DNA of 64,000 nt from NCBI GenBank assembly GCA_913775315.1, contig CAJYIX010000013.1, positions 124,001-188,000 on the forward strand. Direction: 5' to 3'. The stretch's first letter is position 1. Every line of letters begins with the position of its first letter. Below the pieces are notes generated by a model. The model was given only the letters and a program-made list of their open reading frames with translations. It was not told the DNA's origin and searched no databases. This document shows positions 611 to 42,650 of this stretch, piece by piece. The DNA is from an uncultured Sphingomonas sp. (GTDB lineage Bacteria > Pseudomonadota > Alphaproteobacteria > Sphingomonadales > Sphingomonadaceae). Position numbers and translations under genes: made by a program.

Positions 611-906
611 CAGGCGCGCCGCCGCTCCCACTCGGCCAGTTCATAGGCGATCGACGCCTCGACCAGCGTTTCCCACATCGCGCCGATCGCGTCGGCGGGG
701 ATGCCCGCTGCCCGCGCGGCGGCGACGGCATTGTCGATGACCGCGGTCTTGCGCGCCTCGTCGCGGACATGGCCGCGCTCCGGCTTGATGCGGGCAGCGG
801 CGCGCATGTAGCCGAAGCGGCGCGCGAGCAGTGCCACCAGTTCGGCATCGAGCGCGTCGACGCCGGCGCGCACCTCCATCATCGTCGAGCAGTCGTCGGG
901 GTTCAT
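610..906 (-). CDS. Chorismate mutase (AroQ type)
   Basis: 98-residue all-helical AroQ-type chorismate mutase, expected to convert chorismate to prephenate for Phe/Tyr synthesis in the cytoplasm. The opening [19 protein letters not shown] helix is typical of AroQ and carries an Arg at the usual active-site position. A conserved K (in A-R-I-K-P-E) and the later E-x-x-V-E-x-S-I-x-Y-E-L helix follow. The length suits a stand-alone monofunctional enzyme. The similarity extends to isochorismate-pyruvate lyase (PchB), which cannot be excluded. The ATG at 906 is chosen because the family begins just before this helix; a longer start at 945 is open but adds unrelated residues. It overlaps the DUF2256 gene downstream. 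Confidence 0.8.
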
Positions 907-1022
907 CACGTCCGCCCGACTAGCCGATCCGCAGCGGTTCGTCATCGCCCCTGCCCGCGATGCTTGTCGAACCGCCGAAGCTGCGGCACAAACCGCTGAT
1001 CTTCCTGACGGAGACGCCCTCG

Positions 1023-1235
1023 ATGCTGTTCGCGTTGCTTCTGACCGCCACCCTTCCCGCGCCGCAGGAGGCGCAAACGCCCAGGCCGAAGGCCGAGAAG
1101 ATCTGTAAGGGCCGGGTCAACACCGGCTCGCGCCTGCGCTCCAAGCCCGTCTGCAAGACGCAGGCGGAATGGGATGCGGAGGCGGCGACCAACGCCGATT
1201 CGACGCGCAACATGGGCCAGACGCAGAGCCGCTGA
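1023..1235 (+). CDS. Small secreted protein, unknown function
   Basis: About 70 residues. The start at 1023 gives a short hydrophobic N-terminus (MLFALLLTATLPAPQEA) that looks like a signal peptide, followed by a polar mature part with two cysteines (K-I-C-K-G and P-V-C-K-T). That pair could form a disulfide, and the segment R-V-N-T-G-S-R-L-R-S-K-x-V-C resembles small periplasmic proteins often annotated as hypothetical in sphingomonads. I do not recognise a function. An in-frame ATG at 960 would give a non-signal N-terminus and is less likely. Confidence 0.55.
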   Translation: MLFALLLTATLPAPQEAQTPRPKAEKICKGRVNTGSRLRSKPVCKTQAEWDAEAATNADSTRNMGQTQSR

Positions 1236-5938: not shown

Positions 5939-7858
<1,920 letters not shown>

Positions 7859-41190: not shown

Positions 41191-42189
41191 TCAGTGCGCC
41201 ATGGCGCCCTCGCGCTCGCCGCGACGGGCGAGCCAAGCCTGCATCTGCGCGATCTCGACATCCTGTGCACGGATAACGTCGGCGGCGAGTGCGCGAACCT
41301 CCGGGTCCTTGCCGTCGCGTAGCGCGACCTTCGCCATGTCGATCGCGCCGCGATGATGCGGGATCATCCCTTGCATGAAGGCGGTGTCGGGATCGCCGTT
41401 CGTCGCCATCGCCATTTCGTGCGCGGGTATTTGCGCGGCGTGCGGCGTCCAGCCGAGCGCGCCCGCCGTCATCCACAGTGCCATCGCGATCATCATCAGG
41501 TTCTCGGTCAGCGATACGAAACCGAGCGGCACGTTGCTGTCGCCGCCGACGCACGCGCATTTGAGCTCGCGCTTGTCGATATATACCGCCTTGAACACCG
41601 ACATCGCGCCGATCATGCCGATGAGGAGCGCGATCGGCACCGACGCCCAGACGGCGACGCCCGCGACCATCAACAGCCCCGCCAGCCCCTCGGCATAGGG
41701 ATAGACATGGCCGTACGGCACCCAGCGGCGCGCGAGCAGGTCGTAATTGAGGAACATCGTCGCGAAGCGATCGACATTCTGGAGCTTGAGCAGCGCTAGC
41801 ACGACCATCGAGAAGGCGACGAACCATTCGCCCGCGCGCACAGTCAGCGCATCGCCAAAAGCCGCGTAACTCGCCGCCAGCGCCATCAGTGCGGTGAGCG
41901 CGAACAGGACCGCGACCGGGCGATAGGTCGTTGCCTTCGGATCGGCAACCTTGAGGCCCAGAAAGCGGCGCAGATCGTCATGGCCGCCGATCCGCTCGCC
42001 ATCGATGAATATCTGCGGCGTGGTGGCAACGCCGTACTTCGCCTTGAACGCGTCGGTTTCCGCGCGCGTCGTCAGCCAGTGATCGTCAACCGTATAGCCC
42101 TTGCGGCGCAGCAGGTGCTTCGCCTTCAGCCCATAGGGGCAGGTGTGGTCGGGCATCACCATGCGATGGAGCGTTGCGGTGCGGGTCAT
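41191..42189 (-). CDS. Glutaredoxin-MauE/DoxX-DUF305 fusion membrane protein
   Basis: 332 residues with three parts. Residues 1-~80 are a glutaredoxin-like domain with a single active-site Cys (C17-P-Y-G) and a cis-Pro at T-T-P58. Residues ~90-246 are a MauE/DoxX-like membrane domain with four or five helices and the redox motif C211-A-C213-V-G-G in the loop after the K-R-E-L-K turn. Residues ~265-322 are a DUF305 ferritin-like four-helix domain with the M-I-P-H278-H279-R-G metal motif. DUF305 proteins are linked to metal handling (CopM-like copper binding). The GGAGAAGG site and ATG at 42189 lie ~22 nt after a mer-type promoter, and the gene is divergent from a MerR-family regulator. A role in thiol/metal stress is likely; the metal is unknown. 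Confidence 0.85.
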
Positions 42190-42217: not shown

Positions 42218-42248
42218 CATATGGGTCCGTACCATGGTACGGGATCAA
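42218..42248 (-). promoter_or_regulatory. mer-type promoter and operator with 19-bp spacer
   Basis: On the minus strand, TTGATC (42248-42243), exactly 19 nt, then CATATG (42223-42218). The spacer holds a perfect 16-bp palindrome CCGTACCATGGTACGG at 42227-42242. On the plus strand this is T-CCGTAC-CATG-GTACGG-G, a 7-4-7 dyad whose half-sites match the Tn21/Tn501 mer operator (TCCGTAC-n4-GTACGGA) at 13 of 14 positions. The long spacer with central dyad is the hallmark of MerR-controlled promoters. A second palindrome, CCCATATGGG, covers the -10. Confidence 0.8.
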
Positions 42249-42251
42249 GCG

Positions 42252-42650
42252 ATGACGATCGGCGCGCTGGCGGAAGCCGGCGGCGTCGGGGTGGAAACGG
42301 TGCGCTATTACCAGCGCCGCGGGCTGATCGGCCTGCCCGATCGTCCGGCGGGCGGCGGATCGAGCGGCGGCATCCGCCGCTATGGTTCGGGCGATCTCAA
42401 GCGGCTGCGCTTCATCCGGTCGGCACAGGCAGCGGGGTTCACGCTGGATGAGATCGGCGAACTGCTCGCGCTCGATGCGGCAAGCGATCGCGCGGGCGTA
42501 CGGCGATTGGCGACCGCACGGATCGCCGCGCTCGACGAACAGATCGCGGCGCTGAGCGCGGCACGGACGGCGCTTGCGGGTCTCGCCAGCGCATGCGGCG
42601 CGGCAGGCCCCGGCCCCTGCCCGATCCTCGAGGCATTCAAGGCCGATTGA
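42252..42650 (+). CDS. MerR-family regulator without the mercury site
   Basis: 132 residues. The N-terminal winged HTH ([24 protein letters not shown]) and the region [21 protein letters not shown] are very MerR-like. The Hg(II) site needs three Cys (MerR C82, C117, C126); here the C82 equivalent is Arg80 and only C115 and C123 remain, with seven residues between them as in CueR rather than eight. A Gly/Ser insert (residues ~34-39) is present in the wing. The start at 42252 is just after the mer-type operator; upstream starts would lie inside it. Confidence 0.85.

Follow-up and report, generated by a model that had tools for sequence, protein, structure and literature searches.

The window, by which we mean the whole 64-kb stretch of DNA analyzed here, contains a divergent gene pair consisting of a MerR-family regulator (P0002) and a gene coding for a fusion of glutaredoxin, MauE membrane, and DUF305 domains (Grx-MauE-DUF305; P0001), with an inverted repeat between them. 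The features are as follows.

41191..42189, minus strand: target gene Grx-MauE-DUF305, encoding P0001 (332 aa)
41209..41388, minus strand: DUF305/CopM-family domain of P0001, residues 268-327, over the cut-off of the CopM model
41467..41835, minus strand: MauE membrane domain of P0001, residues 119-241, with invariant Cys211-x-Cys213
41989..42147, minus strand: glutaredoxin domain of P0001, residues 15-67, with Cys17 in CPYG
42218..42223, minus strand: -10 element CATATG, 19 nt from the -35 element; a weak match, mostly CTATAT or TTATAT in relatives
42227..42242, no strand: operator dyad CCGTAC-CATG-GTACGG; 10-12 of 12 half-site positions present ahead of the Grx-MauE gene in 98/98 R/H-type loci (Arg or His at the MerR Cys82 column)
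42243..42248, minus strand: -35 element TTGATC of the target promoter; TTGA nearly invariant among relatives
42252..42650, plus strand: MerR-family regulator P0002, 132 aa, with R80, R84, C115, and C123 (Pfam, alignment, model)
42489..42491, plus strand: Arg80 codon, in the alignment column of MerR Cys82 and CueR Ser77
42594..42620, plus strand: metal-loop cysteines Cys115 (42594-42596) and Cys123 (42618-42620), invariant in aligned relatives

Read along the minus strand, TTGATC (42248-42243) is followed by the 19-nt spacer CCGTACCATGGTACGGACC, CATATG (42223-42218), and, 28 nt further on, the start codon of the 332-residue target gene at 42189. The dyad occupies the spacer, and the coordinates and start codon confirm the preliminary description of a 19-bp TTGATC...CATATG spacer facing the Grx-MauE-DUF305 gene. 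An operator within a 19-20 bp spacer between -35 and -10 is expected of the MerR family, and the 19-nt length is kept in relatives. The promoter is absent from a simple sigma-70 scan of the window and its -10 box is weak, but a 19-nt spacer makes this an expected miss. An Rfam scan of the window gave no match at gathering scores.

Comparison with the pSB102 mer operator, T-CCGTAC-ATGA-GTACGG-A, shows that 13 of the 14 half-site positions (7+7) are identical, as had been claimed from inspection, and that the 4-nt centers are unlike (CATG here versus ATGA); the half-sites are thus those of the Tn501/Tn21-type operators of Hg(II)-responsive MerR. The exact dyad occurs once in the 64-kb window and in none of 100 shuffles, and only once genome-wide (3.25 Mb, 44 contigs). 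The remaining genomic sites, among the matches listed, carry two mismatches each, and because a reversed control pattern matches more often than the dyad pattern (164 versus 47 matches per strand) we attribute these to chance. For the dyad itself a chance occurrence was rejected on the basis of the shuffles, the genome control, and its conservation in relatives.

P0002 matches Pfam PF13411 and PF09278 over their cut-offs, corresponding to the MerR winged helix-turn-helix and dimerization helix, and its AlphaFold model (mean pLDDT 91.4) matches the folds of MerR, CueR, and CadR. Residue 80 opens the dimerization helix in this model (80-117), like the aligned Cys82 and Ser77 in MerR and CueR; the MerR helix is given as 82-118 (PMC5027573). 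P0002 scores below the cut-offs of both the mercury MerR model TIGR02051 (100.6 bits; cut-off 150.85) and the CueR model TIGR02044 (76.5 bits; cut-off 147.4). Two of the three Hg(II) ligands of MerR (Cys82, Cys117, and Cys126) are present, but Arg80 occupies the Cys82 column, and therefore also that of CueR Ser77, which is contributed by the partner subunit. The CueR pair Cys112-x7-Cys120 has its counterpart in C115-x7-C123, lying exactly at the ends of the metal loop common to CueR and MerR and followed by an invariant PI. The alignment thus agrees with the earlier observation that Arg80 replaces MerR Cys82 while C115-x7-C123 is retained; to call the latter 'as in CueR' is accurate but has no diagnostic value, since the x7 spacing is shared by 14 of 15 merA-linked MerRs of the same order, and we rejected it as grounds for calling P0002 CueR-like. 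A CCHH tail, proposed to stop Hg triggering CueR (PMC6899792), was not found in the P0002 sequence.

To place this locus among its relatives we used 110 loci, composed of the 30 best from 246 genomes of the order (the window's own included) and 80 named loci, the best-scoring ones from a set of 576 or more relatives among GTDB genomes. The search of the order gave a Grx-MauE target match in 117/246 genomes. Because the 110 loci are the closest relatives of the window's target, the frequencies below are not those of all Grx-MauE genes, and prevalence is biased upward. In 101 of the 110, the target has a divergent MerR-family gene no more than 700 nt away; the regulator of one (L027) is too short to type, leaving 100 typed and 10 untyped loci. 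The Cys82 column is Arg in 89 typed loci, His in nine, and Ser in two, and in a 96-row alignment, which counts the window protein twice (as P0002 and L005), there are 85 R, 9 H, and 2 S. C115 and C123 are kept in all 96 rows, and in a 57-row alignment the CueR Lys81 column is R, H, or Q.

At the 98 R/H-type loci the best intergenic dyad matches 12/12 half-site positions in 65 cases, 11/12 in 30, and 10/12 in three; the flanking TTGACT and CTATAT/TTATAT boxes are also conserved, and the outer positions around them mostly carry less than 0.6 bits. This phylogenetic footprint is strong evidence that the dyad is a real operator, to which P0002 is predicted to bind. Among the ten untyped loci the dyad is retained in L019 and L027, altered in L070, L081, and L105, and was not found at L091, and an operator of another type (see below) is present in L048, L049, L056, and L111. 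The window locus is one case of a conserved module, not an oddity: the pairing of a mer-like target with an altered sensor is supported, but not as a one-off mismatch, since R/H occurs in 94/96 rows and is a group-wide design.

The lineage of the regulator was examined in a 120-row tree that includes the window protein, with a midpoint root for drawing only. All 95 of the 95 distinct R/H rows are on one side of a branch (100/98), neighboring four gammaproteobacterial Hg MerRs including Tn501 MerR (100/96; join 100/91) and then a Marinobacter MerR (L158), and the 15 merA-linked MerRs of the same order (100/98) and the CueR types stand apart; a smaller tree, built without the window protein and with only half of the R rows, agrees. 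The R/H group and Tn501 MerR also have in common the DNA-reading helix Q28-R29-R/K30 (with N30 in 1/57 rows), and E28 is found in CueR and the merA-linked MerRs of the order. Among 25 loci with merA over cut-off (L119-L143), 20 have a CTGT[A/G]-N5-TACAG site and none an exact CCGTAC-N4-GTACGG. Tree position, operator, and helix are thus all shared with Tn501 MerR, indicating that the DNA half of P0002 is of the Tn501 kind; these comparisons support a DNA target that is mer-like, of Tn501/Tn21 type.

This shared ancestry raises the question of whether P0002 still senses mercury through another ligand set, protecting thiols from Hg(II), and two merA-linked MerRs, L125 and L158, do lack Cys82. 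Loss of Cys82 is therefore no proof of a change in metal, and the argument 'no Cys82, hence not mercury' is weakened accordingly. The proposal that mercury is not bound in the usual way stands insofar as Cys82 is replaced, but the loss alone leaves mercury possible. In MerR, Cys82 forms the trigonal Hg site, and a C82Y mutant is seriously impaired in dimerization and Hg affinity (PMC5027573), which argues against a mercury sensor. So does the genetic context: relatives of merT, merP, and merA were not found in the window at E 1e-4, in accord with the preliminary description, nor within 5 kb at any of the 80 named loci, and no MerA over the family cut-off was found in the genome, such that the control of merT/merP/merA typical of Hg(II)-MerR is not seen at any of these levels. 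Further, merA is present in 4/109 genomes with Grx-MauE, among the matches listed, versus 21/137 others, a comparison in which phylogeny is not controlled. Overall we consider a mercury sensor very improbable, although mercury is only disfavored, because C-x7-C is not diagnostic and two merA-linked MerRs manage without Cys82. The L158 gene (Marinobacter salarius pSMR5, 5992-6666) codes for a MerR-family protein with a C-terminal extension containing GMHCGGC and no Cys at the Cys82 column; it is divergent from merT-merP-merA, and its promoter region holds two dyads.

The target protein combines three parts. Its DUF305 domain scores 101.2 bits against the CopM metallochaperone model NF049983 (cut-off 90), and solved DUF305 relatives include Cu(I)-bound CopM, a periplasmic protein with cuprous ions, and Cu(II)- and Ag-bound forms. 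Cys17, Cys211, and Cys213 are invariant in 41 target sequences. The P0001 model has five long helices and one short one between residues 90 and 244, which, together with the positive-inside rule for membrane topology, suggests that the glutaredoxin and the CxC loop are cytoplasmic and DUF305 periplasmic. When the target model was used in a fold search, the 50 PDB matches listed covered thioredoxin-fold or DUF305 parts, and none of these sheds light on the membrane part. Six of 110 target proteins exceed 290 residues, as a DUF305-type fusion would, including the window's and the near-identical L035, and a separate DUF305-like gene is near the target in eight loci. We suggest that the target is a thiol relay serving copper stress.

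Linkage to copper genes was examined using 134 long Grx-MauE places in 109 genomes, among the matches listed (short Grx-only or DUF305-only matches were left out), together with 150 copA places, among the matches listed, and 27 merA places over cut-off. At least 34/134 have a copA multicopper oxidase no further than 10 kb away, where random placement in genomes of 3.2 Mb would give 0.88; the corresponding numbers are at least 18 within 5 kb (0.44 expected) and at least 40 within 20 kb (1.75 expected). At least one of the 134 places has a CueR-type regulator (L017). None is near merA among the matches listed, but this says little as only 0.05 are expected at 20 kb, giving almost no power. Within 5 kb of the target, 30 of the 80 named loci have a relative of CopA, CopB, CopC, CopD, DUF411, CusF, or a Cu-ATPase (27 if CusF and the ATPase are left out), distributed as 28/63 R-type, 2/9 H-type, and 0/8 untyped loci. 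The copper queries were drawn from the loci themselves, and for each of the main clusters one representative was compared with Pfam and NCBIfam. In the other 50 named loci no copper gene of the query set is nearby, and the window contains none of them; the window genome does hold copA, and no CueR over cut-off was found in it.

Three of six annotated plasmid regions also have copper genes. The Sphingomonas sp. NY01 region has an R-type MerR, Grx-MauE, DUF411, DUF305, CopB, and a multicopper oxidase; that of Agrobacterium pAt3 has DUF305, a copper oxidase, copper-binding proteins, and DUF411, plus the operator; and that of Methylobacterium has copper genes and a CueR regulator. Copper genes were not seen in the plasmid regions of S. 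meliloti, S. paucimobilis, and Shinella.

An alternative is that P0002 senses thiol-redox state or electrophiles, such that C115 and C123 would be joined in a disulfide or modified as an adduct and the target would use its glutaredoxin to repair thiol damage. The constant part of the target does pair a glutaredoxin with a membrane domain in which a CxC is invariant, and the 50 named loci with no queried copper gene nearby also speak for this reading; however, the exact placement of C115/C123 at the CueR/MerR metal-loop ends before the invariant PI, the copA linkage far above expectation, and the presence of the same operator ahead of a metal ATPase (see below) lead us to regard it as unlikely.

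Seeking the same operator in the 246 genomes of the order with the pattern TTGANNCCGTACNNNNGTACGG identified 44 sites in 37 genomes, and none with a reversed control. Downstream sequence was examined for 28 of the sites, and 16 were assigned by coordinates against the Grx-MauE list. Grx-MauE is the target at 35 of the 44; one of these 35 is a partial gene (G080), and in another of them (G196) a gene for a short peptide stands between the operator and Grx-MauE. Five sites (G112, G141, G120, G190, and G047) are ahead of a peptide gene only; in G112 an R-type MerR is divergent from the peptide gene, and a Grx-MauE match is absent among the matches listed. Six operator-linked peptides (L171, L173/L213, L179/L195, L183/L191, L211, and L212), for which genomes were searched at operator sites only, are 25-35 residues long and end in CxCxxCTCxxCxC (e.g. 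MVSVTPLAAQRGCQCKPCTCKNCAC). Four that were tested have no Pfam or NCBIfam match, and the peptides probably constitute a metallothionein-like family, with metal binding predicted.

Other operator sites have different targets. In G030 a site (L189, around 6590, contig C2) lies ahead of the gene for a P-type ATPase of 789 residues, which contains CPC, HMBD, and YHS domains and has CusF as a neighbor; the whole protein exceeds the cut-offs of both the copper model (583.5 bits; cut-off 397) and the Cd model (404.2 bits; cut-off 313.5). The R-type MerR of this genome is on another contig (C6; L197), adjoining a gene with a DHxxMDH-rich sequence. The operator also precedes a DUF6010-like membrane protein in G166 and G141 (L174 and L210; 69% identical), which has a His-rich N-terminus and weak DUF6010 similarity, and the G150 site is a Tn21-type merR-merT pair with Cys82. 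Across the class the pattern occurs at 12 sites in 10/385 genomes (reversed control 0), several of which belong to another MerR branch with the site before its own MerR gene. In this branch (L215, L216, L217, and L222-L224; YER[RK]GLI helix) the operator is directly before the MerR gene, as if for autoregulation.

A broad sensor of soft or divalent metals (Cd, Zn, Pb, or Co) would account for the copper linkage as a mere clustering of metal-resistance genes. In its favor, the operator-linked ATPase scores over the cut-off of the Cd model as well as that of the copper model, Cys-rich peptides are ligands of many soft metals, and the neighbors of the target include a CusA/CzcA-family RND pump (six loci) and a DmeF-type CDF gene (four loci). 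The commonest metal-gene clusters beside it are nonetheless CopA, CopB, and DUF411, and there is no third thiolate at the Cys82 column, the partner-subunit position (Ser77 in CueR, Cys77 in CadR, Cys79 in ZntR) described as the main +1/+2 selector (PMC9909328). We judge this broader specificity to be quite unlikely.

The Grx-MauE target is not confined to R/H-type regulators. An operator of TTGACCTT type, characteristic of CueR-type regulators, is before the target in seven loci, with a CueR-type regulator in L017, L030, and Methylobacterium L150, and without an adjacent MerR in L048, L049, L056, and L111. Replacement of CueR by the R/H-type regulator was rejected as a general explanation, as both are present in several genomes (G047, G120, G141, and G190). 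In L030, which has the CueR-type regulator, a gene for a small Cys/His/Met-rich protein (MECCEKMKDKCACCDKM...; 831-1232, minus strand) is between Grx-MauE and a multicopper oxidase-like gene.

Because its relatives are often beside copper-handling genes, P0002 is probably a mercury-type sensor turned copper sensor: one whose lineage retained its operator, became tuned to Cu(I)-like ions, and drives the grx-mauE-duf305 promoter, a reading to which we assign a probability of roughly 60%. The context of the module leans to copper, and the suggestion that the sensor may respond to another soft metal is supported by comparative data pointing to copper-like ions. The CueR-type operators ahead of the same target at seven loci, the operator site before an ATPase that passes the copper model, the CopM-type score of the DUF305 domain, and the presence of copA with no CueR over cut-off in the window genome also favor this reading. 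Counted against the copper reading are the window and the 50/80 named loci lacking queried copper genes, the three of six plasmid regions likewise, the score of P0002 below the CueR cut-off and its lack of Ser77, the coexistence of this type of regulator with a CueR in several genomes, the two merA-linked MerRs lacking Cys82, and the passing of the Cd model by the G030 ATPase.

From the features directly established here (operator, spacing, residues, conservation, tree position, and copper neighborhoods) we infer how P0002 binds DNA and activates transcription, what induces it, what Arg80 does, and how the target acts and is oriented in the membrane, as follows. A P0002 dimer would occupy CCGTAC-CATG-GTACGG within the 19-nt spacer, which is longer than usual; upon induction it would distort the DNA such that RNA polymerase could use the grx-mauE-duf305 promoter. 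With the third thiolate, that of partner-subunit Cys82, replaced by Arg or His, a two-cysteine C115/C123 site would be left, and a linear bis-thiolate site near the cationic R80 and R84 would suit monovalent d10 ions: Cu(I), and perhaps Ag(I) or Au(I). Arg/His at the Cys82 column, together with R/H/Q at the Lys81 column, may thus select Cu(I)-like ions. The product would be a copper-stress protein with a cytoplasmic glutaredoxin, a five-helix membrane domain with CxC, and, here, a CopM-type domain on the periplasmic side.

More tentatively, and at somewhat less than even odds, the group could represent a natural mercury-to-copper switch, in which the charge of a partner-subunit Arg/His, rather than the CueR serine, sets +1 selectivity in a novel type of sensor for Cu(I), Ag(I), and Au(I), with a copper-thiol defense regulon comprising the Grx-MauE redox protein, CopM-type domains, a Cu-ATPase, and an undescribed metallothionein-like peptide of 25-35 residues with CxCxxCTCxxCxC. 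How MerR proteins discriminate Hg(II) from Cu(I) is a subject of continuing work, and metal discrimination by CueR is 'still not fully understood' (PMC6899792). Here a large natural group (98/110 loci) has an unchanged DNA half and a metal site altered at one defined residue, and selectivity should therefore be testable by a single side-chain swap on the same operator. For Grx-MauE (SmGrx3-like) proteins, moreover, the module hints at both a regulator and a role, and it draws attention to very short Cys-rich peptides unnamed in Pfam and NCBIfam.

We found no paper in the open-licence PMC literature that joins an R/H-type MerR, a mer-like operator, and Grx-MauE, and the gene pair is not named in excerpts of PMC8224329, PMC10924375, PMC12300335, and PMC6111035. 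The closest known relative of the target is SmGrx3 of Sinorhizobium meliloti, which has a CPYG glutaredoxin and MauE and a domain layout like that of the target's glutaredoxin-MauE part; excerpts of its description treat it as a redox protein and mention no DUF305 domain, regulator, or metal link (PMC6315971). A plasmid-borne Grx-MauE homologue in S. meliloti does have a divergent R-type MerR, although it may not be SmGrx3 itself. The DUF305 domain in the window passes the cut-off for the CopM/DUF305 copper proteins, and differs from them by its fusion to a glutaredoxin-MauE membrane protein. As for the regulator, the P0002 group keeps the DNA-reading residues and operator of Tn501/Tn21 MerR, but has Arg/His in place of Cys82, a C-x7-C rather than C-x8-C loop, and Grx-MauE rather than merTPA as its target, and P0002 itself, at 100.6 bits, falls short of the 150.85-bit cut-off of the MerR model. 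It differs from CueR in having Arg/His for Ser77, CCGTAC rather than CCTTCC in the operator, a separate branch in the tree, and, in P0002, no CCHH tail; yet it resembles CueR in its two-cysteine C-x7-C-P-I site, the cationic residue at the Lys81 column, the copper neighborhoods at part of the loci, and the CueR-type regulators that precede the same Grx-MauE target in L017, L030, and L150.
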